NCBI GenBank assembly: GCA_017619255.1
Contig: JAFZSS010000100.1
Coordinates: forward strand, 1-25,892
Length of the DNA stretch: 25,892 nucleotides
Source: Muribaculaceae bacterium
Lineage (GTDB): Bacteria; Bacteroidota; Bacteroidia; Bacteroidales; Muribaculaceae
Reading direction: 5' to 3'
Each line of letters starts with the position of its first letter. Position 1 is the first letter of the stretch. The translations under genes and the position numbers were made by a program. The notes below the pieces were generated by a model. The model was not told the origin of the DNA, searched no databases, and saw only the letters and a program-made list of their open reading frames with translations. Shown in pieces: positions 7,386 to 23,130 of the stretch.

Positions 7386-9215
7386 CTATATCTTGAGTAT
7401 TAAGTCAATAATCATGTTCACATCGGCAATGTTGAGCTCTCCATCAGCGTTGGCATCGGCGAGAAGGGAAGAGCAGGGTTGTGATGCAGCCCCCAAGAGG
7501 ATGTTGATGAGGGCGTTGGCATCAGCGATGTTGACCTCGCCGTCGCTATTCACATCACCAGGCAATAGCGTGATTTCCTTGCCTTCCATGTCGATGTTGT
7601 AGCCGTGGGGACGCGAGATGCGCTGTATGTGGATATTGCCGAAGTTATCGACCACACGCACCGTAACAGGCTTGGTCGCCGTGGCGGCTTTGGCCTTGAA
7701 GAGGTGTGTGCTGTTGGTCGTGGTATAATAAGTACTGTAATAGCCGGCGGTGGCGTAACGGGGAACATCATAGGCGAGGGTGTGGAAAGGATCCTCGGTA
7801 TAGACGCGTTGGCACGGGAGGATGCTGTCACCCTCACTGATGGTGACTTGCCAGCCGGGACTGAAGGCGTATACATTGACCATGACCACATTATCCTCAA
7901 TGTTGCCATAGTTCACCCTTGACGGGTACTCATTGAGGATATCACGCATGGTGCTGTTGTTGAGGTAGAAGTCGCGCACGGTGTTCATGTCATAGAGGCG
8001 CATCTGGCTGTCTCCCTCATGGATGGGTTGGAAGACCCACTGCAGGCTCGTGCCGTTGACGGACCAACGCAGGTAACCGGCGGGGCTGCCGTCCTGACAG
8101 ATATGGTGGTCGGTCATGATTGCGCTTTGCCATAAGGAACCGCACACGGCGGTGATGTTGTGCTCGGTCACATGGGGAAAGGCCGAGGGCTCTGCGGTGT
8201 AGTTGCAGTGGTTGTGGCCGCTGACGATGTGTACCTGGTCATACTGGTTGAGCAGGTTGCACAAGGTGTAGGAATTGTCGAGTCTGGCGCTGTAGTTGAA
8301 ATTGGCGTTGATGCTCCAGGCGGGGATATGAAGGCACACCACCAATGGGGTACTGTGGCCCACGAGCGCCAAGTCCTTACGCAACCATTGTATCTGCTCA
8401 TCGGTGATGGCTCCTCGGTAGTTGCGGCTGCCGGCAACACCTTCGCTGTAAGTCTCGCCATCATAGGCGATGTTCAAGTACACGATATCGTCGAGCACCA
8501 CATAGTGCACCTTGCCCAGATTGAAACTGTAGTAGTTGGGGCACACGATGTCGCGCCAAGCCTCCACAGCTTCCTCATCGGTGTTGTCGCCGGCAGGAAT
8601 GCTGGGGTCGTGGTCGTGGTTGCCGATAACGGGCCACATCGTCATGGGGTAATTGAAGTGTTTCATGTCGGCCATGAAATCACTCAGGTTATAGTTGTTC
8701 TGAGTCCAGAAAACATCCCATGTGAGGTCCCCGAGCAGGACGGAGTAGATGGCACCGCCGTCGGCACGCGTCACCTCGTCATTCAGGCAGGCGATGAGGC
8801 CTTTCTTAAAGTAGGCGCGGTCACTGCTGCGTCGCGCCAGGTGAGTGTCGGCGCCAAAGATGACCGTGTGTCGGTCATTATCCACTCGCCGCAATGTGAA
8901 TTCGTGAACCTCGTTGACATTGACATCACGGGAATACAACGGTGCCCAGAACTGGGGGTTGAATCCATCGGCCAGCATGGGCTCATAGCCCCCTGGCAGG
9001 GTGTAGAAGACATAGCCGTTTTTCTTGGCACTGGTCATCGCATAATGACCGCCGGCATCGGTCTGGACAACTTCATAGCCGTCGCTCACGGCAATACCTG
9101 CCACCCCCTGGCCGTCGCAGGTGATGGTGCCGCTCACATTGTGGGCCGCACTCATCGTTGTTCCCGCGAGCACAAGCGTCAGCAGTGTAACAGATATGGC
9201 CTGTATTGTCTTCAT
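7386..9215 (-). CDS. Secreted calcineurin-like phosphoesterase with C-terminal dockerin
   Basis: Exported metallophosphatase of 609 residues. A signal peptide (about 1-24) precedes a carboxypeptidase-regulatory-like beta domain (about 25-110) matching the N-terminal domain of gut Bacteroidetes metallophosphatases. The catalytic calcineurin domain carries all five metal motifs: D123xH125, GD163, GNHD (198-201), H296 and GHNH (333-336). A C-terminal beta domain (about 390-545) follows, then a dockerin type I module (about 551-609) with two calcium-binding loops, GDVNSDGEVNIADANALI and DANADGELNIADVNMII. No cohesin scaffold gene is adjacent. The substrate is unknown; a phosphodiester or phosphomonoester outside the cytoplasm is likely. 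The gene is linked by 5-6 nt gaps to DUF4491 and trmD, an odd setting for a secreted enzyme. Confidence 0.9.
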   Translation of the reverse strand: MKTIQAISVTLLTLVLAGTTMSAAHNVSGTITCDGQGVAGIAVSDGYEVVQTDAGGHYAMTSAKKNGYVFYTLPGGYEPMLADGFNPQFWAPLYSRDVNVNEVHEFTLRRVDNDRHTVIFGADTHLARRSSDRAYFKKGLIACLNDEVTRADGGAIYSVLLGDLTWDVFWTQNNYNLSDFMADMKHFNYPMTMWPVIGNHDHDPSIPAGDNTDEEAVEAWRDIVCPNYYSFNLGKVHYVVLDDIVYLNIAYDGETYSEGVAGSRNYRGAITDEQIQWLRKDLALVGHSTPLVVCLHIPAWSINANFNYSARLDNSYTLCNLLNQYDQVHIVSGHNHCNYTAEPSAFPHVTEHNITAVCGSLWQSAIMTDHHICQDGSPAGYLRWSVNGTSLQWVFQPIHEGDSQMRLYDMNTVRDFYLNNSTMRDILNEYPSRVNYGNIEDNVVMVNVYAFSPGWQVTISEGDSILPCQRVYTEDPFHTLAYDVPRYATAGYYSTYYTTTNSTHLFKAKAATATKPVTVRVVDNFGNIHIQRISRPHGYNIDMEGKEITLLPGDVNSDGEVNIADANALINILLGAASQPCSSLLADANADGELNIADVNMIIDLILKI

Positions 9216-9828: not shown

Positions 9829-9836
9829 TAATTTTG
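9829..9836 (+). promoter_or_regulatory. -7 box for the six-gene tubulin/actin-like cluster
   Basis: TAATTTTG on the plus strand matches TAnnTTTG, with a T-rich stretch at the -33 distance. The start would be near 9843, giving a leader of about 45 nt to the lipoprotein ATG. I find no other TAnnTTTG box in the gaps of the following five genes. Confidence 0.6.
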
Positions 9837-9887
9837 CTATTTAATGGGATGTTGTTCCCTTAAGAGAAGAAAAAGAAAACAACGATA

Positions 9888-11339
9888 ATGAGAGAAATCA
9901 GACGATTACCCGCTTTGCTGTTGTGCTGCGTGCTGCTGGCAGGACTGTTCTCGTGCGGCGGACGCGGCAGTTTGGATAAGGCCGTGCGCAAGGTGCTGGT
10001 GAGCGGTGACACGACGCGTGCCGCCTATGACTCACTGTGCTCGATAGTGACTGCCAACCCTGGCAAGTTCGGTGACCTGTTGACTGCCGAAGGCAAGGTT
10101 GACCACAAGAAAATGTATGATTACATTGAGGGCATCGCATCGAGCCTTCGTCCGCCCATGCATTGGGACACGCGGCCCTACGGCGGTGTAGAGGACCTGT
10201 CGCTGACGGTCTATTTCGAGCGCAGTGGCTCGATGGTCCCTTATGACCAGCGCGGCGGTGGCGGCCAGTTGAAAAAAGCCGTAAACGACCTTATCAACCA
10301 TTTTCCCGCGACCAGCAAGGTCGATATCAACATCGTGAATGACGGCATCTATCCCTACCAGCACTCGGTCGATGAGTTCCTGCAGGACCGCGACATCTAC
10401 CAGAGCACGGCAGGGATAGGCGATGCGAGCTATACTGATTTCCAGCTGATTTTCAACAAGATTCTGGAGGCACAACGCCCCGGCAATGTCAGTGTGCTGG
10501 TGAGCGACCTGATTTACTCGCCCAAGGACACCCATGGGGTGAGTCTGGACAAGATTTTCAACGAGGAGAACAGTTTGGCGACCCGCGTGTTTGCCAAGTA
10601 TAAGGGCAAGAGTGTGGTGGTGCAGCAGCTGATGGGTGACTTCAATGGCAAGTATTATCCCTATGACGGAGTCCCCTTTGACTACAAGGGTCAACGCCCG
10701 TTCTACTTGATCATTATCGCTGATGCAGACGCGATGGATTTGCTGGCTCAGGACAAGCGCTACAGCGGCGTGCTTGACGCACCTGGGGTGCGCAACAGTT
10801 ATCGCTTCAACCAGGGTGCTGCCCAGGTAGCGTGTGATGTGCTGCCGGAGTGGAAGGATAATGCGGGACGATTCCGTGCCAAGCACGGCGAGGAAATCGT
10901 GCTGACCAATTGCAAGGGTGACCGCGAGACCGGCAAGTTGTGTTTCACCATCGCTGTGGACTTGAGCGGTTTGCTCAAGGACAATGCCCTGTTGACTGAT
11001 GTGGCCAATTATGATGTCAAGAGCATTGACGGTTACACAATGAGCATTCAACCGGTGGACCAGGGTATGATTACCGCCAACAATAGGTCTTATCTCGAAG
11101 GGAAGACCCACTTGCTGACATTCACCGGTGACCTGAAGAGTCCGCGTGACGAGGTGCGTGTCTCGCTGCGTAACGAGCTGCCTGCATGGGTGCGCCAGTC
11201 CTCGAGCGTCAACGACACCAGTGCCGACGGCTCATTTGCTACGACGACTTTAGGCCTGGAACAGCTGCTGGGTGGCATGTTTGATGCTATGAGGGGCGGC
11301 AACAACTTGTTTGAATTGACTATCCGACTCCAACAATAA
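9888..11339 (+). CDS. Periplasmic lipoprotein with von Willebrand factor A-like domain
   Basis: A 483-residue lipoprotein and first gene of the cluster. The signal peptide ends in lipobox LFSC (Cys23) followed by GGRG, with no acidic surface-export signal, so it probably faces the periplasm. Residues about 100-280 look like a vWA fold: the strand LSLTVYFERSGSM carries a MIDAS-like E111-x-S113-x-S115, with T183 in DASYTDF and D207 in the strand VSVLVSDLIYSP. The usual first Asp of DxSxS is Glu here, so metal binding is plausible but atypical. Residues 330-480 are a second, beta-rich region. vWA domains mediate metal-dependent protein contacts; the partner is unknown. Cluster context suggests a periplasmic sensor or tether. 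I do not recognise a named family. Confidence 0.75.
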   Translation: MREIRRLPALLLCCVLLAGLFSCGGRGSLDKAVRKVLVSGDTTRAAYDSLCSIVTANPGKFGDLLTAEGKVDHKKMYDYIEGIASSLRPPMHWDTRPYGGVEDLSLTVYFERSGSMVPYDQRGGGGQLKKAVNDLINHFPATSKVDINIVNDGIYPYQHSVDEFLQDRDIYQSTAGIGDASYTDFQLIFNKILEAQRPGNVSVLVSDLIYSPKDTHGVSLDKIFNEENSLATRVFAKYKGKSVVVQQLMGDFNGKYYPYDGVPFDYKGQRPFYLIIIADADAMDLLAQDKRYSGVLDAPGVRNSYRFNQGAAQVACDVLPEWKDNAGRFRAKHGEEIVLTNCKGDRETGKLCFTIAVDLSGLLKDNALLTDVANYDVKSIDGYTMSIQPVDQGMITANNRSYLEGKTHLLTFTGDLKSPRDEVRVSLRNELPAWVRQSSSVNDTSADGSFATTTLGLEQLLGGMFDAMRGGNNLFELTIRLQQ

Positions 11340-11373
11340 CCTGACCTTTGAACTCTAAACTCAAAACTGATTA
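11340..11373 (+). repeat. CT-phased heptamer array before the membrane-protein gene
   Basis: From 11346 to 11373 there are four consecutive heptamers starting with CT (CTTTGAA, CTCTAAA, then two more) that abut the ATG at 11374 exactly. The array fills the whole gap after the lipoprotein stop except 6 nt. Confidence 0.75.
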
Positions 11374-11829
11374 ATGAAACATATTGGATTTTTGATTACG
11401 GGAATTGTGGTGACCGTGTTGTTCTTTATTTTGAGCTGCGGTTTTGATTACAACATTTATGAGTGGATGTACACCTCTCAGGGTTTCAGCGACTCGATGA
11501 TGAATCTGAATGTCTATCCCGTGATTGCCGCCATCACCATCATCGTGGCATGGGGTGGCGCTGCCATCTATTACTATGCCATCAACTCGGTGAAGTTTGA
11601 CCGCTGGTATCACTGGCTGGCAGTGATGGCAGCGGTGGCGGTGTTGTCACCCGTCATCTGCTACCTCTACAACGACTCGGTGTTTTCAGACAGTGGCTTG
11701 GCCTATGCCGGCCAGGCGATGAGGTTTGAGATGGTAACGGTTTTGTTTGCGGCTGTGCTCTTTATCATCGCATCCTACTCGATACGGTGGTGGAGCAGCA
11801 ACTGCCGTCACACGCCCATACCGCAATAA
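11374..11829 (+). CDS. Four-helix membrane protein of unknown function
   Basis: A 151-residue inner-membrane protein with hydrophobic segments near 5-25, 48-70, 81-101 and 119-139, and a polar tail WWSSNCRHTPIPQ. Between helices 1 and 2 lies a short, probably periplasmic loop rich in Tyr and Met (DYNIYEWMYTSQGFSD). I see no enzymatic motif. It lies between the vWA lipoprotein and the tubulin-like gene, separated from each by heptamer tracts of 34 and 75 nt. It may anchor the cytoplasmic NTPases or the lipoprotein at the membrane, which is inference from context only. Confidence 0.7.
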   Translation: MKHIGFLITGIVVTVLFFILSCGFDYNIYEWMYTSQGFSDSMMNLNVYPVIAAITIIVAWGGAAIYYYAINSVKFDRWYHWLAVMAAVAVLSPVICYLYNDSVFSDSGLAYAGQAMRFEMVTVLFAAVLFIIASYSIRWWSSNCRHTPIPQ

Positions 11830-11904
11830 AAGTTAGAAATGAGAAATTTGAAGTTAGGAGTTTGTTGCTAACAGCGAAAGCCTAACAGCGAAAAGCTAAA
11901 AAAT
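11830..11904 (+). repeat. Two heptamer arrays before the tubulin-like gene
   Basis: The 75-nt gap divides without remainder. Five heptamers ending in G run from 11830 to 11864 (AAGTTAG twice, AAATGAG, AAATTTG, GAGTTTG). TTG follows, then five heptamers from 11868 to 11902 containing the direct repeat CTAACAGCGAAA at 11868-11879 and 11882-11893 (14-nt period). Two bases remain before the ATG. No promoter box is seen. Confidence 0.8.
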
Positions 11905-13428
11905 ATGAGACTATTTCTATTTGCTATCGGAGGCACCGGGTCAAGGGTGTTGAAGTCGCTGCTGATGTTGTCAGCGGCGGGAGTGCGCCCCCTTGACGAG
12001 GACGGAAAGCCTGTCAAGGACTTGGAGATTGTGCCCGTGATCATCGACCCGCACAAGGCCAACGAGGACCTGAAGCGCACCGAAGCGATGCTGATTGATT
12101 ACCGTGAGATCAGGAAAAAGCTGTACGGCACTGATCCCAACGCGGATGGATTCTTTGCCAACCGCATCGTCACCCTGCGTGAAATTATGAGCAACAGCAG
12201 CGTGACCTTGAACGATACATTTATCTTTAACCTGGGTGCGGTGGAGAATGCCAAATTCCGCGAGTTCATCGGCTATGACACGATGAACGAGGCCAACCAG
12301 GCGTTGACATCGTTGTTGTTTGCCAACTACCAGTTGGAGAACAAGATGAACATCGGCTTTGTGGGCAGTCCCAACATCGGCAGCGTGGCGCTGAACGAGA
12401 TTAAGGACAGCAACGAGTTCAAGGCGTTCAGCAACATCTTCCGCCAGGGCGACCGCATCTTCTTCATCAGTTCTATCTTTGGCGGAACGGGTGCCGCCGG
12501 CTTCCCCATCATGGTCAAGAACATCCGCCAGGCCGCCAACCTCGAGGGCATTGAGAACCGCGACGCGTTGAGCCGCGCTCCCATCGGCGGACTCACGGTA
12601 CTGCCATATTTCACCCTTGAGGGCAATAAGCACGACCAGCGCATTGCCACCAGCGATTTCATCGTGAAGACGCAGAGCGCGCTCTATTATTACAAGAACA
12701 CGCTCACGGGTGACAACGACAGTAATGTGAACAGCATCTACTATCTGGGCGACAAGGTGCGCAGCAAGCCCTATCTATATGACCCGGGTGAGCACGGACA
12801 GCGCAACAACGCCCATCTGATTGAGCTCATCGGTGCATTGGCTCCGCTCAACTTTGCGGGTGTGCCGGATAGCAAGTTGTTTGATGCCGACGGATATCCC
12901 ATGCCTACCACGGCCTATGAGTACGCCCTTGCCAAGGACGACCTGACACTCAATTTCCTGTCGTTGGGCCACCGCACGCGTGAGCTGATTTATGAGCCCA
13001 TGAGCAAATTCCATCTGCTGTTCCTGTTCCTGACGACAGGCCTGAAGGATATTATCGGGCAGGGCTTCACCGAGGATGAACCGAAAATCAAGAGCGATTT
13101 CCTAGCCTCGCAGTTCTACCGCACGCTGGTGGACCAGTTCATGCTGGCCTATGCGCAGTGGCTCACTGAGATGCACGACAATATGCGTAGCGTGGCCTTG
13201 TTCAGGCCTGGCGAAATTGACATGAGCCATGTCATCGAGGGCGTGAATGTGAAGAAGGCGCTGTTCGGCCACAAGAAGGTGGACAACGATGTGTTCAAAT
13301 CCGAGATGAACAAGTTGAGCAAGGACGCCACCATCTATAGCGACCGCACGGTGGAATTCAAATTGCTGGACTTGTTCAACAAGGCGGCACACAAGGTTTT
13401 CACCGAACGCTACGAAAATATCAACTGA
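11905..13428 (+). CDS. Tubulin/FtsZ-like GTPase (Tubulin_2-type)
   Basis: Cytoplasmic protein of 507 residues. The N-terminus MRLFLFAIGGTGSRVLKSLL has the Rossmann-like strand and glycine loop of tubulin/FtsZ proteins, with GGTGS at 9-13. A second glycine loop, SSIFGGTGAAGFP (about 189-201), matches the tubulin signature GGTG(S/T)G that binds GTP phosphates, with Ala in place of the usual Ser/Thr. The preceding strand DRIFFISS fits the fold order. The protein is longer than FtsZ (about 380-400 residues) and has no FtsZ C-terminal peptide, so it is not the division FtsZ. The best fit is the tubulin-like family seen in multi-gene clusters with vWA proteins. GTP binding and filament formation are inferred. 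The next gene encodes an actin/Hsp70-fold ATPase. Confidence 0.8.
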   Translation: MRLFLFAIGGTGSRVLKSLLMLSAAGVRPLDEDGKPVKDLEIVPVIIDPHKANEDLKRTEAMLIDYREIRKKLYGTDPNADGFFANRIVTLREIMSNSSVTLNDTFIFNLGAVENAKFREFIGYDTMNEANQALTSLLFANYQLENKMNIGFVGSPNIGSVALNEIKDSNEFKAFSNIFRQGDRIFFISSIFGGTGAAGFPIMVKNIRQAANLEGIENRDALSRAPIGGLTVLPYFTLEGNKHDQRIATSDFIVKTQSALYYYKNTLTGDNDSNVNSIYYLGDKVRSKPYLYDPGEHGQRNNAHLIELIGALAPLNFAGVPDSKLFDADGYPMPTTAYEYALAKDDLTLNFLSLGHRTRELIYEPMSKFHLLFLFLTTGLKDIIGQGFTEDEPKIKSDFLASQFYRTLVDQFMLAYAQWLTEMHDNMRSVALFRPGEIDMSHVIEGVNVKKALFGHKKVDNDVFKSEMNKLSKDATIYSDRTVEFKLLDLFNKAAHKVFTERYENIN

Positions 13429-13430
13429 TG

Positions 13431-13464
13431 ATAGCCACTATAGTTACCTATAGCCACTATAGTT
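13431..13464 (+). repeat. Direct repeat of 15 nt in the tubulin-like/ATPase gap
   Basis: ATAGCCACTATAGTT occurs at 13431-13445 and 13450-13464 (19-nt period), immediately after the stop at 13428. The palindrome CTATAG recurs three times within the tract. Unlike the other junction tracts the period is not 7. It lies 22 nt before the ATG at 13487. Confidence 0.75.
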
Positions 13465-13486
13465 TTTAGAAGATAAGACAGACAAA

Positions 13487-16400
13487 ATGAGCGACATACT
13501 ATCCTATAGCAATAACACCAACAAGAACGGCGAGGAGGACTGGATCGGGCATGCCCCATACAGTGACGATGACATTGCGCGCATCAAGGACCCCGACGGC
13601 GGCTTAAGCGAGAATCCGCGCACTGCAATTCCCAGTCCGTTGGCTCAGTTAGACCTGGTGAAGAACGCCTTCAAGCAGCTGGCCAATGACCAGTTGCGCG
13701 GTGCCCGTATGAACGAACGATTGGTGTCCAACGCTTTGGATGTGGCACAATTGTTCTTTGACTACGAGAACCACAAGGACTACCTGCGCATCATCCGTTG
13801 GAACCGTGAGGAGAATATCGAGCAACTGAAGGCCAATCCGCAGCATCGCTTGTACGGCGAAACGCTGGACCTGTTCCTGCGCAGCGACAAAGTCTATAAT
13901 TTCGATTTGCTCAAGGACTGGTACATCATCATGTGGGACCGCAAGGTGCTGGGCGGCACATCACCGGCATCCATCGTCATGGCAGCGCCTGCCGTGGGTG
14001 TGATTGATGCCATCAAGGTGGAGCAGGGTGTGAGCCTGTTTGGCGAGACACGCCACCTGTGGCAACGCGACGAGGATTTTGTTTATTACTTCTACTTGTT
14101 GATGAACGCATATCCCGCCTTGCGTCTGCATTGCGGCGAGGTATATGCTTACATGCAGAAGAATCTGGAACCTCTGCGCAAGAACCGTCCTGCGCTTTAT
14201 AGCCGCCTTACCGCTGTCATTCCCAACCTGGATGCCCTTGACGAGGGCCGCGCCAGTGTTGTGCTGGAGCAGTTGGAACACAGCTATGACCCCTTCGGTG
14301 GCGGTATTGATGTGAGTGTGCTGGGTGCCCGTTTTTACCATAAGCGTGTGCTCGATATCCGCACCGCTGCCAGCGAGAGCGATTTCGTCATCACCCCGAC
14401 GATGCCCCAAGACAAACAGGAATTGCCATTGGTACTGGTCAACGGATTCAACGGCAGTGTGGAGCGTTTCCGCTATATCGACAAGGAGTGGGACAGCGCT
14501 ACCCAGGTTTATGGCGGGGGTCTCCCCTTGAGCGACCGCAAGCTGCCCGACACATCGATTCAATACCCGTTTGTCACGACCGATGATTTCCTGACCGATA
14601 CTCTCGTGCGCCTGGACAGTGGCTGCGTGATTGACACAGACCACTTCTTTGACGGCAACCTCAAGCCGCGCACGCCGCAGCCCACCTGTGGTTACCTGCT
14701 GCCCTTAAAGCCGTTGCTTTTCACCTATTTTGATACCGATTACCTCAAGGGCACCATCGCCGGGCGTCATGTGATGGACATCGAGGAGTTTGCTGACGGC
14801 AGTGTAATGGTCACCCTGCGCATTCGCGTTAAGAAGGGGGAGAACCGCTATATTGAGTTGTCGCGCAAGTATTTCCCCATCAATGACCATACTTGGACCT
14901 TTGACGAGCGCCGCGGCACGGGCCGTGTCGTGGGCGCCACATTGTCCACCTCGGTGTTCCCGTTTATCAAGACCGATGCCAACGATGACTACACCGTGCA
15001 GCTGTTCACCATGATTGAGAGTGGTGGCGCGACTTTGCGATTCTATAAGAACGGCATCAAGACCGAGGGGCTGAATGTGCGCGACGCCATCCGTTCTCAC
15101 TCGGGTTACAGCACCACCTATTATGATGTTGACGGTTCATTTGACTATATGGAAGTCAGTGTGCAGAACCATTTGGGCCGCTCGTCAGGTGTGATTATAC
15201 CGCAATGGAAGCCCTATGCCCCCAGTGCCAAAGAACTTATCTTTGCCGTGGATTTCGGCACGACCAACACCCATATCGAGTGGGCCGAGCGTGGCCAGCC
15301 CTCACGGCCGTTCACCTTTGATTACGGCTCCCAGCAGGTGCTTGTCGCCTCGTTGCACAAGCCTCGCTCACTGGAATATGCCGAGCAGGTGCAGCGCGTC
15401 GAGTTCTTGCCCCGCGAGATTGATAATGTCTACGGTTTTCCCTTGCGCTCCACGCTGGCCCGCAACGAGAACAGCGGCATGGGGAGTAACCTCTTCAGCG
15501 ATGTGAACATCCCGTTCCTGTATGAGCGCCGTTATTTCCATGGCTATGAGGTGACGACCAACCTCAAATGGAAAGGTGACGCCGAACTGGCCAAGGCTTT
15601 CCTTCGTGAACTCACTTTGCTGATCAAGGCCAAGGCACTGCTGGAGAATGCCGATTTGCGCCGCACCGAGGTTGTCTACTTCTATCCCGTTAGCATGGGT
15701 GGTGCCGATCGTGATTCTCTGGAACGCACCTGGAGTGAGTTGTTCAATACCTATATTGGTGCCGACAGTGACCACTTGCGTTCTTATCCCGAGAGCCTCG
15801 CACCTGCCTTTTACTACAGCGGTGCTGAGGTGGCAGGCAGCAGTTATGTGTCAATCGACATTGGCGGTGGCACCTGCGACACTGTCATTTATCAGCCGAC
15901 GAATGACCGCATGAGCAGCGAGCCTGTGGCCATTTCATCGTTCCGGTTTGCAGGCAATGCCCTTTTTGGCGACGGTTTCACCGACAAGGATGCCGACAAC
16001 AACCCGCTGCTCCAGCATTACACCCGCTACTTCAAACAGCTCATCGAGAACGACAAGGGCAACAATATCGCTTACTTGGGCAGTATCCTGGGCGACATCA
16101 TGGCTCAGAAACGCAGCGAGGATATCAACGCCTTCCTTTTCTCAATTGAGAATGTCGAGGAGTTGCGCACCCTGCGAGAGATTGACCGTAACCTGTACAG
16201 TTACAATGCCCTGCTGCGTAACGACAGCCAGCGTCGCCTGGTCTTCATGTACTTCTACTCGGCCATCATCTACTATATTGCCCAGGCCATGAAACAACGA
16301 GGCTACGAGATGCCCAAGCAGATTTACTTCTCGGGCACGGGCAGTAAGATTCTGAACATATTAGGGTCGCACAGCCGCATCAACATGCTCACCCAGACCA

Positions 16401-16930
16401 TCATCGAGCGTGTCTATGACCGGCAATACACCGAGTCATTTGAAATCAAGCAGGAGGTGGAATGTCCCAAGCAGATCACCTGCCGTGGCGGTATCAAACT
16501 CGAGAACAAGCGCCTTGAGGGCCAGGCCGATGTGTCGCGCTACAATGCCGTCAATGTGAAGCGTATGCGCTACTGCTGCTCAATGCTGGGCGATGATGAA
16601 CTCACCATGGCCCAAGTCGAGTCTGTTGAGGTGCGTGACCGTCTGGTAGAGAAAGTCAAGGAGTTCAACCAGTTCTTTGTTGACCTGTGTGACGCGACCA
16701 TCAAGGATGAATTCGGCATTGAGAACAATGTGCTGAGGCTCTTTGAAAGTGTGCTTAACGATAATCTGGCCAACTACCTCACCGCGGGTATCAACACCTT
16801 CCTCAAGGGCCGCTACAACGCCGTTGATGTGGTAGAGGATGTGCCGTTCTTCTATCCCGTCATCGGAGTGATCAGGCACAATCTGCTCAAGAATCTGCGT
16901 AACGATGTCATCAGCAAGTTTAACCAATAA
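13487..16930 (+). CDS. Giant protein with Hsp70/actin-like ATPase domain
   Basis: Cytoplasmic protein of 1147 residues with no signal peptide or membrane helix. Residues 1-about 270 are mainly helical and about 270-580 are beta-rich; I recognise neither. From about 585 an ASKHA ATPase domain is clear: FAVDFGTTNTHIEW (phosphate 1, D589), a connecting region, VSIDIGGGTCDTVIY (phosphate 2, D791, GGGT 793-796) and IYFSGTGSKILNIL (adenosine loop, G950-G952). The closing region (about 1000-1147) holds a Cys pair (ECPKQITC) and a helical end. Chaperone DnaK would begin with the ATPase, so this is not DnaK. SrfB-like virulence proteins are a possible relative, since they are also large and ASKHA-like. 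ATP-driven polymerisation or remodelling of the neighbouring tubulin-like protein is inference. Confidence 0.8.
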   Translation: MSDILSYSNNTNKNGEEDWIGHAPYSDDDIARIKDPDGGLSENPRTAIPSPLAQLDLVKNAFKQLANDQLRGARMNERLVSNALDVAQLFFDYENHKDYLRIIRWNREENIEQLKANPQHRLYGETLDLFLRSDKVYNFDLLKDWYIIMWDRKVLGGTSPASIVMAAPAVGVIDAIKVEQGVSLFGETRHLWQRDEDFVYYFYLLMNAYPALRLHCGEVYAYMQKNLEPLRKNRPALYSRLTAVIPNLDALDEGRASVVLEQLEHSYDPFGGGIDVSVLGARFYHKRVLDIRTAASESDFVITPTMPQDKQELPLVLVNGFNGSVERFRYIDKEWDSATQVYGGGLPLSDRKLPDTSIQYPFVTTDDFLTDTLVRLDSGCVIDTDHFFDGNLKPRTPQPTCGYLLPLKPLLFTYFDTDYLKGTIAGRHVMDIEEFADGSVMVTLRIRVKKGENRYIELSRKYFPINDHTWTFDERRGTGRVVGATLSTSVFPFIKTDANDDYTVQLFTMIESGGATLRFYKNGIKTEGLNVRDAIRSHSGYSTTYYDVDGSFDYMEVSVQNHLGRSSGVIIPQWKPYAPSAKELIFAVDFGTTNTHIEWAERGQPSRPFTFDYGSQQVLVASLHKPRSLEYAEQVQRVEFLPREIDNVYGFPLRSTLARNENSGMGSNLFSDVNIPFLYERRYFHGYEVTTNLKWKGDAELAKAFLRELTLLIKAKALLENADLRRTEVVYFYPVSMGGADRDSLERTWSELFNTYIGADSDHLRSYPESLAPAFYYSGAEVAGSSYVSIDIGGGTCDTVIYQPTNDRMSSEPVAISSFRFAGNALFGDGFTDKDADNNPLLQHYTRYFKQLIENDKGNNIAYLGSILGDIMAQKRSEDINAFLFSIENVEELRTLREIDRNLYSYNALLRNDSQRRLVFMYFYSAIIYYIAQAMKQRGYEMPKQIYFSGTGSKILNILGSHSRINMLTQTIIERVYDRQYTESFEIKQEVECPKQITCRGGIKLENKRLEGQADVSRYNAVNVKRMRYCCSMLGDDELTMAQVESVEVRDRLVEKVKEFNQFFVDLCDATIKDEFGIENNVLRLFESVLNDNLANYLTAGINTFLKGRYNAVDVVEDVPFFYPVIGVIRHNLLKNLRNDVISKFNQ

Positions 16931-16948
16931 CCATAATACGCTTTAATT

Positions 16949-18145
16949 ATGAAACGAATTACTTTACTCATGGCAGCAATCGTCTGCCTCGCAATCTCGG
17001 TAATGGCCGAGGTGAACGAAGACCAGACCCTGTCCCCTGAACTCTGGAAACAGGGTGTGGCTACATGTGCCCACTACACCGCCCATGGCCGTGGTTTCGG
17101 TAAGAAGATTGAGGAAATCCACAGGCAGTTCCCGCAGGGCTATACCCTGGATAACCTCAATGAGGTCTATAGCAAGCAAGGACGCCGTTGGGAGAGCATC
17201 TACAATGAGTTCAAGGCCAAGGAGAACACTGGTGGCACCATCAAGGACCTTGAGGCACTCGTGACGCCCCAGATTTGGAAGCTCGCAGAGCCCGAGATTA
17301 ACAACTTCATTGAAACGCCCCCGGTGTTTACTGTAGACTCGCCGGCACAACCCGCCGAGCAGCAGACCGATGGCCAGCAAGTCGATGGCGAGCAGAACCA
17401 GGCTCAAGCCGGTGATGCCGCTGCACAGCCCGCCAAGGTTGAGGGCCAGGGATTTACCTGCCCTGCCAACCTGCCCTTGTGGTTAGGCATCCTCGGTTCA
17501 CTGCTGGGCTTGTGGGCATTGCTCACCGCTCTGAGCAACCGCGGCAAAATTAAGGAATTGCGTCGCACCTTCGCTCGCGAACTTGAACGCACCAATGCCA
17601 ACCTTCAGGAGTTCTCAACCGATGCGGCTGACCAGATGAAGGCCTTGTCGATCCGTCTTACAGGAAAGTCGCTGCGTGACAGGGAAGAAATCTCTTACAT
17701 TGATCCTGTCGAGGAACCGGTAATGGAAGAAGAGGAAATGCCCGCTGAGCCTGTTGAGGAGGAAATCAATCCTGTTGAGCCCGTCCAGGAAGAGCAGGAA
17801 GAGGTCGTTGAAGAGGAAGAAGGCGAAGTCATGAACTTGTTCATGAGCCGTCCCGACGAGAATGACGACTTTACTCGCGTTAGCGACACCTTTGAGCCTG
17901 GAAATTCTATCTATGTGCTTACCACTTTTGACGGCACGCATGGCACATTTGAAATCATCGATAAGCCTGAAGTACACCGTTTTGCCTTGATGATGCCTGC
18001 CGAGAACCTGATCCGCGCTTGCTCCGGCAATGCCATTCAGATTCCCAGCGGCACTCGCATTGTCACTGATCGTGCCGGTGAGGCCGAATTCATCGACGGC
18101 CGCTGGCATGTTGTGGTAAAAGCCATCATCCACTACGAGGGATAA
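16949..18145 (+). CDS. Bitopic membrane protein with periplasmic domain, acidic linker and cytoplasmic domain
   Basis: A 398-residue protein I do not recognise. The signal peptide (1-20, ISVMA/EVNE) leads to a helical periplasmic domain (about 21-110), then a Gln/Ala-rich linker (130-168). One transmembrane helix, LPLWLGILGSLLGLWALLTA (175-194), is followed by basic residues (NRGKIKELRRTFARELER) and a short coiled coil to about 235. Residues about 252-294 are a Glu/Pro/Val-rich linker with repeats such as PVEEPV and AEPVEEE. A compact C-terminal domain (about 295-398) ends with VTDRAGEAEFIDGRWHVVVK. By the positive-inside rule the C-terminal half is cytoplasmic, so the protein could link the cytoplasmic NTPases to the periplasm. 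It starts 18 nt after the ATPase gene. Confidence 0.72.
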   Translation: MKRITLLMAAIVCLAISVMAEVNEDQTLSPELWKQGVATCAHYTAHGRGFGKKIEEIHRQFPQGYTLDNLNEVYSKQGRRWESIYNEFKAKENTGGTIKDLEALVTPQIWKLAEPEINNFIETPPVFTVDSPAQPAEQQTDGQQVDGEQNQAQAGDAAAQPAKVEGQGFTCPANLPLWLGILGSLLGLWALLTALSNRGKIKELRRTFARELERTNANLQEFSTDAADQMKALSIRLTGKSLRDREEISYIDPVEEPVMEEEEMPAEPVEEEINPVEPVQEEQEEVVEEEEGEVMNLFMSRPDENDDFTRVSDTFEPGNSIYVLTTFDGTHGTFEIIDKPEVHRFALMMPAENLIRACSGNAIQIPSGTRIVTDRAGEAEFIDGRWHVVVKAIIHYEG

Positions 18146-18154
18146 ATTTTTGAG

Positions 18155-18242
18155 CTACTAGCCTTTAGCTGTTAGCTTTTAGTAGGTTTACCGTACCTGC
18201 CAACAGCTAACAGCTAATTGCTGATAGCTAATATCTGAAAGT
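18155..18242 (+). repeat. Two heptamer arrays forming a long inverted repeat
   Basis: Four heptamers of form CNNNTAG fill 18155-18182 and six more, mostly starting CT, fill 18200-18241, ending 1 nt before the next ATG. Arms 18165-18177 and 18205-18217 are exact 13-nt reverse complements, so the RNA can fold into a stem whose 27-nt loop covers the non-heptameric middle. No T-run follows, so this is not a standard terminator. It may modulate the zinc-ribbon gene downstream. Confidence 0.75.
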
Positions 18243-18674
18243 ATGCGCTGGACCTGCCCCAAATGCGGTAAAAAACTTGAGATCAGCAACAAGCAACTCA
18301 TCGACCGTGATGGATTGATTGTCTGCCCGCAGTGCCTGCTGCAGGCCCGTCAGCCGTTGCCCAAGTCCAGCAGCGCTGACGAACCGCCAGCCTACGAAGC
18401 CAAACAGGGTCCAACGCCGCCAGAGCGCAAACGCACTGCCACGCCACCACCTTATAAATCTCGCATGAAGTCATCAACCACATCATCAAGCAATAGCGCA
18501 ACAAGTAATGTCAGCGTTGCCCCGAGAAAGACTGTAGGCAAAAAGAAGTCCAGGAAGAAAGGGAAGAACGACGGCATGAGTGCGTGGGGTTGCTTAGCCC
18601 GCACTGTCATTATCACCCTGTTGCTGTTTGCTGCCTATGTTTTCTTTGGCCTCCTTCTTGATGCGCTCCAATAG
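18243..18674 (+). CDS. Zinc-ribbon protein with C-terminal membrane anchor
   Basis: A 143-residue protein starting MRWTCPKCGKKLEIS. Cysteines C5, C8, C28 and C31 form two CPxC knuckles of a zinc ribbon. Residues 40-110 are a Pro/Ser/Thr/Lys-rich, probably disordered linker with a very basic stretch (VGKKKSRKKGKND). The C-terminal helix ARTVIITLLLFAAYVFFGLL (about 119-138) would anchor it with the ribbon in the cytoplasm. Such proteins often serve as adaptors. It is the last gene of the cluster, separated by a 97-nt gap containing a 13-bp hairpin. No function is assigned. Confidence 0.72.
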   Translation: MRWTCPKCGKKLEISNKQLIDRDGLIVCPQCLLQARQPLPKSSSADEPPAYEAKQGPTPPERKRTATPPPYKSRMKSSTTSSSNSATSNVSVAPRKTVGKKKSRKKGKNDGMSAWGCLARTVIITLLLFAAYVFFGLLLDALQ

Positions 18675-18835: not shown

Positions 18836-20932
18836 ATGCGTAAATTGTTTTTCTTGCTGCTTCTTGCAGCACTCACGACAATGACCAGCTTGGCGTTGAA
18901 TGTCAACAACACTGCGGGCCAGCTTTCGCGCTTAGTCGGCGACAACACCTCTGTGACCTCGTTGGTGGTCAGCGGTACGATGGACGCCCGTGACTTCCAG
19001 TTCATTACCGAATCGATGGATGAGTTGAGTACATTGGACTTAAGCCAGGTTACCATTGTTCCCTTTAACCAGGGCATGGCGCTCTATGGCACAGTTACCA
19101 ACTATCTGGGCAACACGATTCCTCGGACAGCCTTTTTCGGCAAGAAACTGTCGTCGGTGACACTTCCCGCCAATCTGGAGACCGTTGGTTATGCGGCTTT
19201 TGCGGGTTGCGACCAGTTGCGCAGCATCACGCTGCCGGCTACGGTGAGCATGATTGAGGACTATGCCTTTGCCGGAGCTGGTCTGACGAGTGTGCAGATT
19301 CCCCAGACGGTCATCTATATGGGAAAAGGCGTGTTCTCGCGTTGTGAGTCGCTGGAGAATGTAGTGGTCAACTCCTTCACGGTTGGCGACTTTGCTTTCT
19401 TGGGCGACATCAGCTTGAACCAAGTGAAAATCGGCAGCAATGTGAACTACATCCTCAGGGGTGCGTTCAACGGTTGCAAGGCGTTGACGACCATTGACAT
19501 GAGTGAGGCAGCCAATTTGGTACGCATCGACGAGGAGGCTTTCATCAACTCTGGTTTGCAGAACATCGACATCACCAACATGAATATTGGCACTGTCGGT
19601 GACTGGGCTTTTGCCCAAACCCGCCTTTCTTCGCTCCACCTGTCTGATGGCATGACCATCTTGGGCGAGGGAGCGTTGGCTCACAATCCGCAGCTCACTA
19701 CCGTGGTACTTCCCGGCCTGAGCATGAACGAGCCCCCCGTGCACCCTGCTCCAAGACTGACATCGGCTCCTCATCGCACCATTGAGCATATCAGTGATTA
19801 CACCTTTGCTGGTGACGGTCAACTCAATGCCGGTGATTTGCTCAAGCAAGATGTTACCCACATCGGTAACTATGCTTTCTATAATGCCAGCGCAACCATC
19901 GACACGATGCGTTTGCCCTCGACAATCGTTTACCTGGGTGACTATGCCATGGCAGGCATGACGGGTATGCAGACCCTCAAGACCGACGCTGTTGCGGTTC
20001 CCGCTTTGGGCGAGAATGTATGGGCCGGTGTGGATCAGGAGTCTGTGCCCCTGTTCACCCCCAATGATGAGAGTACCGAGCTTTATAAGGCAGCCGACCA
20101 GTGGATGAACTTCTACTTCAAGACAATTGTGGATTACATCCTCGGTGATGTGAATGATGACGGCTGCGTGGATATCAGTGATGCTACCGCCTTGATCAAT
20201 TATCTGCTCTCGGGATCAGGTGATATCAATGTACTGGCTGCAGACATGAACGGTGACGGCTGTATTGACATCAGTGATGCTACCTCCTTGATCAATTACC
20301 TGCTTAACGGTCGCTCCTCGATGTCGCTGCAGCGTATGCGTGCCATGATTGAGTCGCTGTATGCCAACACGGCCGACATGCTTGGTATTCAGTCATTCTC
20401 CCTGCGCCCCACCGAGACCCGCACCGTAGATGTCGCATTGACCAATGATGAACACATCTACACGGCTATGCAGTTCGATGTTGTTCTGCCTCAAGGTGTG
20501 AAACTTCTGGATATCGAGGGCGTGGACCGTGGCATCAGGCATAACTACTATATCCTCCAGCATGAGGCTCAAGAGAATGTCTATTCTGTGATTGGCGTCT
20601 CGATGGAGATGGCCGCGTTCAACGGTAATGAGGGTCATGTCATGAGCTTGACAATTGCTGCCGATGACGACTTCAAAGCCAACAATGCCGTCGTTCAGCT
20701 CACCAATGTGCTGCTCGTCTCGACAGAGCAAGAGGTCTATAACTCAAGCGATGTCATGACCAAGGTGAGCGAGGCCTCTGGCGTTGAGCAAGTGCTTGCA
20801 GGCAAGCAGATTGTGAATGTGCGTTACATCAATGTCGCTGGACAGGAAAGCGAGACTCCGTTCAATGGTGTGAACATCGTGGTCACCACCTATGATGATG
20901 GCACCGTGACAACAGCCAAGGTCGTCAAGTAA
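18836..20932 (+). CDS. Secreted BspA-like LRR protein with dockerin, cohesin-like domain and sorting-type tail
   Basis: Exported protein of 698 residues. The signal peptide is about 1-20. Residues about 85-415 are BspA/LRR_5-type repeats (for example LPANLETVGYAAFAGCDQL), typical of surface adhesins. A dockerin type I module lies at about 436-495, with calcium loops starting at D438 and D470. A beta-sandwich at about 525-645 (TRTVDVALTNDEHIYTAMQF, then DVVLPQGVKLL) resembles a cohesin. The last 40 residues (YINVAGQESETPFNGVNIVV to KVVK) look like the C-terminal tail of type IX-secreted Bacteroidales proteins. It has its own promoter, is followed by a hairpin terminator, and has a paralogue next door. 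The binding target is unknown. Confidence 0.85.
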   Translation: MRKLFFLLLLAALTTMTSLALNVNNTAGQLSRLVGDNTSVTSLVVSGTMDARDFQFITESMDELSTLDLSQVTIVPFNQGMALYGTVTNYLGNTIPRTAFFGKKLSSVTLPANLETVGYAAFAGCDQLRSITLPATVSMIEDYAFAGAGLTSVQIPQTVIYMGKGVFSRCESLENVVVNSFTVGDFAFLGDISLNQVKIGSNVNYILRGAFNGCKALTTIDMSEAANLVRIDEEAFINSGLQNIDITNMNIGTVGDWAFAQTRLSSLHLSDGMTILGEGALAHNPQLTTVVLPGLSMNEPPVHPAPRLTSAPHRTIEHISDYTFAGDGQLNAGDLLKQDVTHIGNYAFYNASATIDTMRLPSTIVYLGDYAMAGMTGMQTLKTDAVAVPALGENVWAGVDQESVPLFTPNDESTELYKAADQWMNFYFKTIVDYILGDVNDDGCVDISDATALINYLLSGSGDINVLAADMNGDGCIDISDATSLINYLLNGRSSMSLQRMRAMIESLYANTADMLGIQSFSLRPTETRTVDVALTNDEHIYTAMQFDVVLPQGVKLLDIEGVDRGIRHNYYILQHEAQENVYSVIGVSMEMAAFNGNEGHVMSLTIAADDDFKANNAVVQLTNVLLVSTEQEVYNSSDVMTKVSEASGVEQVLAGKQIVNVRYINVAGQESETPFNGVNIVVTTYDDGTVTTAKVVK

Positions 20933-21141: not shown

Positions 21142-23130
21142 ATGAGACATATCATCACATTGGCTGTTATCGCAATCTGTGCATTGCAGGTTCAAGCCAT
21201 CGTCGTCAATAATACTGCCGGCAAGCTGTCGGAACAAATAACTGACATGAATGTCACTGACTTGACAGTGACAGGCACGATGAATGCCGAGGACTTTTAT
21301 TTTATCTCAGGCAACCTGCATGAACTGACCATGCTGGATATCGCTGCCGTGAGCGTTGAACCTTGCTCCAGCGCAAAGCGTCATTATCTGCGGCATAGTT
21401 TTGCCGCGGGCGAGATTCCTGTTTGTGCCTTTGCCGACATGAAGTTGGCTAGCGTGGTGCTGCCATCAAGTGCCACGGTTATCGATGAGGGCGCTTTTGC
21501 AGGCTGCTCGCAGTTGACGAGTGTCACTTTCCCCACAGAGCTCGACATCATCGGCAATTATGCTTTCGCTGGCTGTACCTCGTTGACGGCAATGACCCTG
21601 CCTGCAAGCGTGACCGCTGTGGGCGACGGTGCCTTTATGCGTTGCTCATCGCTCGAGAGCTTGAAGGTGCAGTCCCCGGGACAGCTGCAGACCCTGGGTG
21701 AGGCAGCGTTGATGGACTGCCCCCTGTTGACCGATATTGTGTTGGGTAATGGGCTGCTTGCCACGGGTGAGCGCCTTTTGGCGGGTAGTGGCGTCACGGC
21801 TCTGGACCTCACTACCAGCACGAAATTAGCTAAATTGGGTGATTGGATGATGGTCCAGACTCCCGTAACCAGCGCTAAATTGCCTGCGAGCATGACGAGC
21901 ATGGGCAGTGGCGCCTTCCTTTATGCGAAGGACTTGACCAGCCTCACGATGGGTGATAAAGTGAGTGAATTCGGCGACTATGCCATGGCTGGGACGGGCC
22001 TCACAGGCAGTATTGAGTTAAATGGTCTGACAAAGTTGGGTGATTATGCGTTGTATAATGCTTCAAGCCTGTCAGAGGTGACACTGTCCGCGTCTACCAC
22101 CTGGCTGGGCGACTCGGCCATGGCCGGAATGACAGGGTTGGAGGCGCTCTCTTGCCGTGCTACCCAGGTACCTGACTTGGGCGAGAATGTATGGGCCGGC
22201 GTCGACCAGCAATCTATTCCGTTGACGGTGCCCGCTTCCTCGGTTGATCTGTACAAGGAGGCTGAACAGTGGAAAGAGTTCTTCTTTGAGGAACAGCCCT
22301 CGTGGTTGCGTGGTGATGTGAATAATGATGGTGAGGTCAACATTGCCGACATCAACCTGCTCATCGACATCATCCTGGGCGGACAAGCCGACGAGGCGAC
22401 CATGCGCCGTGCCGATGTTAATCAAGACGGTGAGGTGGGTATTGCCGATATCAACGCTGTGGTGGATATTATCCTCACACCAAGTAGCCATGCTCCTGCA
22501 ACGGTAAATACCGATGACATGTTACGCCTCGATGACCTGGCTATTATGCCGGGCGAGGAACGCTCTGTGGCCATCAAGCTGGAGAATGCCGATGCCTATA
22601 GTGCTTTGCAGTTTGATGTAATTCTGCCGCAGGGACTTACGCTCATCAACGATGGCGTGGCTGTTGGCGCTAGTGCCAAGGGTCATACTTCTGAGGCCCG
22701 CGACATCGATGCCGTCACCACCCGAACGGTGGTTTACTCGATGCGCAAGCGCCAGTTTGACGGTGAGGGCAACGCGGTCATCACCTTGACGGTGAGCGCC
22801 GATGCAACACTTGAGACCGATGGCCTGATTACATTGAGCAACATTGTGCTTTCCGGTGACGACAACAAGGCTTATTATGCCGCTGATTATACCGCTCGCG
22901 TGACCAACAACACGGGCATTGAGGACTTGACGGCCAACATGGACCGCGTCTGGGCCGAGGGTCACAACCTGTGCATCGAAACGCGCAACATCTGCAATGC
23001 CCGTCTGGTAGCCATCAATGGCGAGGCCCGCCAGGTAACACTCGACGAGGGTGTCAACCGCTACATGCTCGAGCCGGGCTTCTATGTGGTCGTTGTTAAC
23101 AACAAGAGCTACAAGATTGTAATCAAGTAA
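21142..23130 (+). CDS. Secreted BspA-like LRR protein with dockerin, cohesin-like domain and type IX-like tail (paralogue)
   Basis: Exported protein of 662 residues with the architecture of its upstream neighbour. A signal peptide (1-19, ending LQVQA) comes first, then VVNNTAGKLSEQITD, which aligns with the neighbour's VNNTAGQLSRLVGD. BspA/LRR_5 repeats run from about 90 to 370. A dockerin (about 390-450) has loops DVNNDGEVNIAD and DVNQDGEVGIAD. A cohesin-like beta-sandwich (about 462-580) contains SVAIKLENADAYSALQFDVI. The last 35 residues, ending YVVVVNNKSYKIVIK, fit a type A sorting domain of type IX secretion better than the paralogue's tail does. The two genes are an old tandem duplication, clearly diverged. 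The stop is only 9 nt before trmB. Confidence 0.85.
   Translation: MRHIITLAVIAICALQVQAIVVNNTAGKLSEQITDMNVTDLTVTGTMNAEDFYFISGNLHELTMLDIAAVSVEPCSSAKRHYLRHSFAAGEIPVCAFADMKLASVVLPSSATVIDEGAFAGCSQLTSVTFPTELDIIGNYAFAGCTSLTAMTLPASVTAVGDGAFMRCSSLESLKVQSPGQLQTLGEAALMDCPLLTDIVLGNGLLATGERLLAGSGVTALDLTTSTKLAKLGDWMMVQTPVTSAKLPASMTSMGSGAFLYAKDLTSLTMGDKVSEFGDYAMAGTGLTGSIELNGLTKLGDYALYNASSLSEVTLSASTTWLGDSAMAGMTGLEALSCRATQVPDLGENVWAGVDQQSIPLTVPASSVDLYKEAEQWKEFFFEEQPSWLRGDVNNDGEVNIADINLLIDIILGGQADEATMRRADVNQDGEVGIADINAVVDIILTPSSHAPATVNTDDMLRLDDLAIMPGEERSVAIKLENADAYSALQFDVILPQGLTLINDGVAVGASAKGHTSEARDIDAVTTRTVVYSMRKRQFDGEGNAVITLTVSADATLETDGLITLSNIVLSGDDNKAYYAADYTARVTNNTGIEDLTANMDRVWAEGHNLCIETRNICNARLVAINGEARQVTLDEGVNRYMLEPGFYVVVVNNKSYKIVIK

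Follow-up and report, generated by a model that had tools for sequence, protein, structure and literature searches.

The question raised by this locus is what a tubulin-like protein and an actin/Hsp70-like ATPase do together when their genes lie side by side, among genes for envelope proteins, in a gut bacterium. The stretch analysed here (the window) comprises 25,892 nucleotides from a Muribaculaceae bacterium (assembly GCA_017619255.1, contig JAFZSS010000100.1, positions 1-25,892, forward strand). Six successive open reading frames (ORFs), named A to F, span 9888-18674 with intergenic gaps of 18-97 bases, and all six ORFs that the original prediction, made from the letters alone, had placed on the plus strand were confirmed. 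To our knowledge, tubulin-superfamily and actin-superfamily proteins seldom form one conserved unit. Genes C and D, which encode the two here, form a conserved unit in Bacteroidota that also occurs on at least one plasmid of a cyanobacterium; in some relatives a phage-defence motor module is attached. The cluster may be read as an envelope-spanning assembly system gated by nucleoside triphosphates (NTPs), of conflict or stress-response ancestry, that became a motor-less core trait in the window's genus; this reading is tentative, with a probability of roughly 0.45. The features are as follows.

9829..9836, plus strand: possible Bacteroidota -7 box, TAATTTTG, upstream of gene A
9888..11339, plus strand: gene A, putative vWA-type lipoprotein, 483 residues; a motif resembling the metal-ion-dependent adhesion site (MIDAS), ERSGSM, with a later D207, and an N-terminal hydrophobic segment before SC
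11374..11829, plus strand: gene B, small membrane protein, 151 residues, about four helices by hydropathy of the ORF
11905..13428, plus strand: gene C, divergent FtsZ/tubulin-superfamily protein by glycine loops and weak profile matches, 507 residues
13487..16930, plus strand: gene D, 1147 residues, ASKHA (MreB/FtsA/Hsp70-type) domain after an N-terminal region of ~580 residues, by motifs and profiles
16949..18145, plus strand: gene E, predicted bitopic protein, 398 residues; signal-like N-terminus, presumed periplasmic region, transmembrane (TM) helix, acidic linker and conserved C-terminal domain
18243..18674, plus strand: gene F, predicted zinc ribbon (CPKC...CPQC), tail-anchored, 143 residues; basic low-complexity middle (by eye) and C-terminal TM helix

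Gene C carries the motifs GGTGS at residues 9-13 and FGGTGAAG at residues 192-199. Among 16 aligned diverse sequences, the window's included, G9, G10, G12 and F192-G196 are invariant, T11 and A197 nearly invariant, and S13, A198 and G199 variable, and the two tubulin-type glycine loops that had been pointed out in C are borne out by this conservation. As for profiles, one relative of C (in locus L136) matches two Pfam families without reaching their curated cut-offs, Tubulin_2 at E 1.6e-4 and, over residues 3-198, Tubulin (PF00091) at 1.5e-5. Against PF13809 the window's C scores 13.5 bits and the relatives in L136, L131 and L178 score 21.5, 18.8 and 19.0, with a gathering score of 27; another relative, P0099, has a precomputed PF13809 annotation. 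When a profile of the 16 sequences was compared with PDB, 31 of the 33 chains at E up to 10 were FtsZ or tubulin, with a best E of only 0.019. In a profile-profile comparison with three FtsZ proteins the right loop was aligned at a score of 21.2, which proves nothing beside shuffled-column controls of 13.3, 19.5 and 15.4 and a score of 17.5 for D. The Pfam and PDB matches are individually weak, yet they agree with the conserved glycine loops. When the diverse C alignment was used in a protein search, the best 120 matches were near relatives again, with identities of 60% or more, and the window's C found no match in a phage collection. No hydrophobic helix is present in C or in D by hydropathy. 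The assignment of C to the tubulin superfamily is supported by motif and, weakly, by profile.

Similarly, gene D contains DFGTTN at 589-594, DIGGGTCD at 791-798 and SGTGSK at 949-954. These three motifs are invariant in 38 aligned sequences except at C797, which bears out the presence of all three ASKHA nucleotide loops in this 1147-residue protein, and D589, G591, N594, D791, G793, G794, D798 and G950 remain invariant among 15 very diverse D sequences. A profile of the latter 15 sequences gave MreB as its best match (1.3e-4), followed by DnaK (0.0048), and the D protein of the cyanobacterial relative matched FtsA, with an E of 4.8e-5 that stays below cut-off. No relatives outside D's own family were found for its first 580 residues. 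An ASKHA-type domain in D is thus supported by motif and, again weakly, by profile.

A further question is whether the neighbouring genes belong together, or whether unrelated conserved genes have merely come to lie side by side. The best 80 of 171 confirmed related loci were considered, and 12 of the 80 were excluded for short flanks, so that 68 were used. The order A-B-C-D is kept in 67 of these 68 loci; in the exception, L059, C is followed by long proteins of RHS-like appearance (judged by eye), and D was not seen within 10 kb. The strict six-gene order failed in 16 of the 68 loci, in ten because the longest-ORF start overlapped the preceding gene by more than 60 bases and in six through an unfound gene, namely F in L045, L061, L069 and L081, E in L055, and D, E and F in L059. 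In three loci of the window's own subtype (L044, L048 and L059), extra DNA lies between C and D. The ratio of nonsynonymous to synonymous substitution rates (dN/dS) was estimated from the 39 closest of the 80 loci, 26-39 of them usable per gene; across genes the medians for these close relatives range from 0.044 to 0.170, with 0.056 for C, 0.044 for D and 0.109-0.170 for the envelope parts. C and D are under the strongest selection, and the envelope parts are under weaker selection.

Searches of genome sets extend this picture. At E up to 0.001, C was found in 27 and D in 20 of 119 genomes of the family, and C in 14 and D in 9 of 247 genomes of the order; at the level of the phylum, where C only was searched, it was found in 8 of 345 genomes. 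When C is restricted to E <1e-30, a line chosen post hoc with the results already known, the genomes with C and those with D at E up to 0.001 are identical sets, of 20 genomes among the 119 of the family and of 9 among the 247 of the order. In all seven family genomes with a weak C match, D stands beside C by iterated profile. According to gene maps of 44 distant loci, D directly follows C in 40, and L146 is cut by a contig end; upstream of C, A or a diverged A occurs in 33 of the 44 (in L119 as a fragment only) and B or a diverged B in 36. Pairwise distances are correlated between C and D at r=0.973 (n=36), between C and A at 0.840 (n=23) and between C and B at 0.815 (n=24). Co-occurrence of the tubulin and ATPase genes in other genomes had been set in advance as a check, and the claim survived it. 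Chance adjacency of unrelated conserved genes has next to no probability and is rejected, since it is contradicted by the kept order in 67 of 68 loci, by the matched occurrence of strong C and D, and by a cyanobacterial plasmid on which A, C, D and E are recognised in this order too. A to D form a conserved operon-like unit, and C and D travel together.

The plasmid in question, from Picosynechococcus, encodes A, C, D and two E-like proteins in order by profile, and at the position of B it carries a hydrophobic 170-residue protein with no profile match. A Prevotella replicon is labelled as a plasmid, but its size is 1.77 Mb. In addition, 5 of 46 pattern matches in IMG/VR encode a relative of C, and on one of these viral-collection contigs A to E adjoin a DNA methyltransferase and a tail protein.

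The envelope proteins had been described from the letters alone, and motifs, hydropathy and alignments agree with these descriptions one by one. In gene A, S113 and D207 are invariant and S115 is kept in at least 90% of 24 aligned sequences; where a standard MIDAS has DxSxS with a later T and D, the MIDAS-like motif reads ExSGS in the window and DxSGS in some relatives, the later Asp being invariant. There is also a short profile match (E 5.5e-5) between A and a protein of L168 that is itself VWA by Pfam. Hydrophobic segments lie near 4-28, 41-65, 81-99 and 115-133 in B, at 4-22 and 177-195 in E, and at 121-139 in F. The linker of E has Asp or Glu at 23 of 55 residues, and F reaches 22.9 bits against Zn_ribbon_4, whose cut-off is 30.3. 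The predicted placements agree with the claim that every compartment from periplasm to cytoplasm is covered.

The genes that follow the core vary between lineages. Trees of C and of D (42 rows each) both contain two deep groups, with a long-branched cyanobacterial row placed uncertainly. In the first group A-B-C-D-E is followed by variable genes, and in the second, diverged A and B, where found, precede C and D. In five loci of the second group (L131, L132, L133, L135 and L159) TerD-type proteins follow, after a protein of small-Hsp70-like appearance (judged by eye); the one TerD protein tested, from L131, matches Pfam at 1e-42, and the protein before the TerD-type ones, scanned in one case, has no Pfam family. 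Ten of the 44 distant loci, every one in the first group, continue into a complete ZorA/ZorB-type pair. PADLOC models recognised ZorB in all three pairs tested (2.7e-12 to 1e-16) and ZorA in two (3.3e-7 and 1.7e-11), and the membrane Asp of ZorB is invariant in 10 of 10 sequences, that of L143 being taken from an inner start. To account for the ZorAB label, each of the two trees needs at least 6 changes, of which well-supported branches force 3 (C tree) and 6 (D tree); the motor was therefore gained or lost more than once.

Several single loci bear on the motor. In L119 and L161 (G425:C319 and C360), the start of a D gene lies ~41 kb from a middle part at a contig end, and the last part of D stands on the other contig, followed by E and a ZorAB-type pair; we infer that the pieces belong together, as an eleventh ZorAB case. 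In L121 and L122, a ZorA-like tail and C-terminal helix were matched, with neither the motor part nor ZorB, which is read as the remnant of a lost motor, bearing in mind that coiled coils can match by composition. L167 contains ZorAB, a 1652-residue protein and an SNF2 helicase with best match DrmD. At L168:8646-15636, kinase, PP2C and vWA genes, which we take to be a TerY-P-like set, directly adjoin a ZorA/ZorB-type pair, and at L164:6317-9921 such a pair lies beside a 459-residue protein that resembles ADP-ribosylglycohydrolases by eye. ZorB-like proteins were found in 6 of 119 family genomes, all six C-positive, with four adjoining the cluster and a fifth (G425) on the contig with the D end. 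They were found in 27 of 247 order genomes at E up to 0.001, and 11 of these matches are at <1e-40, four of them beside the cluster. The motor is common to several systems, because ZorB also occurs in genomes without C and in L167 and L168.

The cluster can also run on into other modules. A set of 46 accessory proteins was hand-picked and scanned with Pfam; 42 came from the 78 non-motor rows (one of them E-like) and four from L162 and L166, two contig ends with ZorB and no C in view that supply, by eye, two aspartyl proteases and two nucleases. Trypsin was recognised in 7 proteins, aspartyl protease in 5, SNase in 3, YkuD (L,D-transpeptidase) in 2 and DO-GTPase1 (double-GTPase) in 1. It can be seen that the downstream modules differ between lineages. 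Such findings raise the possibility of a working anti-phage or conflict system in the window's genus too, in which A would sense an envelope disturbed by infection, D would release C for assembly and an effector, which in relatives would be ZorAB or hydrolases, would stop the infection. The ZorAB-type motor that adjoins the core at 10 of 44 loci, the varied proteases and nucleases with the single DO-GTPase1 match, the plasmid and phage-side copies, the TerD-linked sister subtype and the patchy distribution outside the genus all speak for it. This explanation is nevertheless doubtful, since the cluster is near-universal in the genus and has housekeeping genes around it in the window, which is not the pattern of a patchy defence island; moreover, genes A to E gave zero PADLOC matches at E up to 1 and the six genes include no recognised effector.

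The window's genus is probably Sodaliphilus: the relatives L050 and L057 are named Candidatus Sodaliphilus and share their match coordinates with G705 and G704. Within the genus, C and D each occur in 100 of 101 genomes, and the genome without C, which is 74% complete, also lacks D; among genomes with a completeness of 90% or more and a contamination of 5% or less, both are present in 48 of 48. FtsZ_C was above cut-off in all 14 genus genomes tested, the window's own genome included. Because ordinary FtsZ is kept in all 14, C is an extra tubulin, and C as a replacement for FtsZ is rejected. ZorB had no match in 6 of the 7 genus genomes drawn, namely the window's own genome (58% complete) and five cluster carriers that are 95-98% complete; the seventh, G361, does match ZorB, but on another contig, away from C. 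ZorAB elsewhere in the genus as a hidden partner was likewise rejected, with one of seven genomes matching ZorB and that match not adjoining C.

In a quick tree of D, the window groups with the second-type copy in G361 and with Prevotella sp. oral taxon 299 at an SH-like approximate likelihood ratio test (SH-aLRT) value of 100, and in all three a zinc-ribbon-type protein follows E, judged from an F-profile match in L116 and from CxxC motifs seen by eye in L177. Since this group shares the zinc-ribbon protein after E, the zinc-ribbon subtype seems to be a motor-less branch. L116 (G361:C14) is a second cluster copy in a genome of the same genus and has two tandem D-like genes, the second of ~900 residues, and G723:C81 has tandem D-like genes similar to those of L116.

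The resemblance of the cluster to conflict or stress-response systems is taken as one of ancestry, because the relatives are variable and patchy, and some stand on a plasmid or next to phage genes. The motor-less form with F is core in the window's genus, and its role there is therefore most likely envelope maintenance or cell shape under stress, and not optional defence. A related explanation is a constitutive shape or growth machine, in which C and D, as a scaffold attached to the membrane, would set the width or length of the cell and would do so independently of FtsZ and MreB. It would suit a core cluster that is strongly conserved in the genus, and L,D-transpeptidases are among the accessory genes of relatives. 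It has been reported in the available text of PMC7738495 that the irregular rods of Sodaliphilus pleomorphus reach 50 um in length and become shorter and thicker with age; as a hint of the cluster's role this is suggestive only, because the morphology of a single strain proves nothing and carriage of the cluster by that strain is presumed. Patchy carriage in other groups is ill suited to a constitutive machine, which is unlikely overall.

Under the preferred reading of an envelope-spanning assembly system, the proteins would act in sequence. Lipoprotein A would use its vWA domain to read the condition of the envelope, B and E would relay the signal of A across the inner membrane, D would load or release C as an Hsp70/actin-type ATPase switch, and C would form an assembly dependent on guanosine triphosphate (GTP) at the cytoplasmic face. 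In relatives, the output would pass through exchangeable modules such as a peptidoglycan-gripping, ion-driven motor of ZorAB type, proteases, nucleases and L,D-transpeptidases. Physical coupling of C and D to the periplasmic sensor, which had been proposed from the gene set, is something we infer. If the coupling is real, the cluster offers a testable case of two cytoskeletal-fold NTPases acting jointly at the envelope, it links ZorAB motors to another kind of partner, and it represents a variable conflict-type system that turned into a core trait of a genus.

Several points weigh against this reading. The order of signalling is a guess. Genes A to F, C and D of the window included, gave nothing above cut-off in Pfam or NCBIfam, and among 24 A sequences the Pfam vWA model was found in one and vWA-TerF-like in one, both weakly. 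Among C matches weaker than the 1e-30 line the single searches disagree (at E up to 0.001, C in 27 and D in 20 of the 119 family genomes, and C in 14 and D in 9 of the 247 order genomes), two of the five order genomes with weak C (G496 and G497) have no D beside C by iterated profile, and L140, L150 and L151 have C and no D on contigs that continue. E-C distances correlate poorly (r=0.337, n=18). As for the motor, 34 of the 44 loci have no complete ZorAB pair, partly through contig ends; in L136 the ZorA-like protein is closer to LeoBC (6.2e-8) than to ZorA (0.028); Pfam misses the ZorA-like protein in both cases scanned and places the one ZorB scanned below cut-off; and 5 of the 11 strong ZorB matches in the order sit in genomes without a C match, so that the motor is not exclusive to the cluster. 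A bolder proposal is a new class of envelope machine, in which a ZorAB-type rotary motor would work a tubulin-like and actin/Hsp70-like scaffold under the control of a periplasmic vWA sensor, for immunity or envelope repair, with the motor lost and the scaffold made core in one gut genus; we regard it as speculative and rather improbable.

Upstream of gene A, TAATTTTG is present at 9829-9836 as the original prediction had it, and by the Bacteroidota consensus it may be a -7 box. TANNTTTG occurs 15 times in the window against 8.5 expected, so that it is not rarer than chance; a promoter here is no more than plausible. The cluster's flanks vary among relatives. Flanking genes as parts of the system were ruled out, being housekeeping genes (TrmD, CoaX, LptC, TrmB and Mrp) and BspA-LRR/dockerin proteins. 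Near the cluster, a metallophosphoesterase (7386-9215) and two BspA-type leucine-rich-repeat proteins (18836-20932 and 21142-23130) each have a dockerin domain.

Among known systems, the FtsZl1-vWA operons were described by Makarova and Koonin in 2010 (Pfam Tubulin_2, PF13809), and membrane remodelling was proposed for them (PMC2875224). According to the available text of that article, they encode a divergent FtsZ-like protein together with several membrane proteins and a vWA protein, and their genomes have an ordinary FtsZ besides, as is true of the cluster; some operons include OmpA-type peptidoglycan-binding proteins, a further likeness. Most FtsZl1 members have an extended coiled coil and a helical C-terminal domain. 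The cluster shares the vWA-type gene in the operon (with weak Pfam support for A) and the T1 and T4 glycine loops in C. It differs in that the FtsZl1-vWA operons, in the same text, feature P-loop GTPases and protein kinases, and in that C, with 507 residues, falls below the PF13809 cut-off. The main text of PMC2875224 does not contain the terms Hsp70, ASKHA, MotA, MotB, TolQ or ExbB, and 'actin' appears six times in general remarks. Membrane remodelling or vesicle formation has been considered for the cluster on the strength of the same partners and this published proposal; it is distinctly unlikely, since no coat, remodelling or lipid enzyme occurs among 25 of the 30 Pfam families, those listed for the accessory proteins, and the links with ZorAB and with proteases suggest the wall and periplasm, not vesicles.

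Meanwhile, GTPase-centred conflict systems (GAP1-N2 and others) with tubulin, HSP70 and vWA were described by Kaur et al. in 2020 (PMC7159879). In the available text these resemble the cluster in having tubulin, HSP70 and vWA near the membrane, variable partners and NTP-dependent assemblies, and they differ in their core of TRAFAC GTPase and GAP1; no P-loop GTPase model in Pfam was matched by the six cluster proteins. Because a class in that text joins GTPases, tubulin homologues and an HSP70 protein, the pairing of tubulin and HSP70 folds has a precedent; in its main text 'MotA' is absent and the lone match to 'ZorA' is an author's name. Zorya systems place a ZorC/ZorD or ZorE effector beside the motor. 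The ZorA/ZorB motor of Zorya has a 5:2 stoichiometry, as given in the available text of PMC11890865. In some relatives of the cluster, ZorA has hydrophobic segments at the N-terminus and in the middle and a long tail, and ZorB has a TM segment, an invariant Asp and an OmpA-like end, as in Zorya; unlike Zorya, the window is without ZorA and ZorB, and among relatives the motor is one exchangeable module. D shares all three nucleotide loops with the MreB/FtsA/Hsp70 ATPases and differs from them by ~580 extra N-terminal residues, conserved with the domain, and by being too distant for curated cut-offs.

The literature was surveyed by titles, abstract starts and some texts, with most subscription journals outside the search, and within this scope no unit of a tubulin-like and an ASKHA protein with a ZorAB motor was found. 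The earlier view of the cluster as a machine of two cytoskeletal-fold NTPases was sound as to the conserved unit, the tubulin and ASKHA identities (by motif, weakly by profile) and the compartments; it had missed the published relatives, as far as the available texts of PMC2875224 and PMC7159879 reveal them, and was further incomplete as to the lineage-variable downstream genes, the ZorAB pairs after 10 of 44 distant loci and the core form in the window's genus. The closest published relatives are the FtsZl1-vWA operons and the tubulin/HSP70 GTPase systems, and what seems to be new beside them is that C and D form a tight unit with no GTPase core, that a ZorAB module recurs, and that a motor-less form is fixed throughout a genus.

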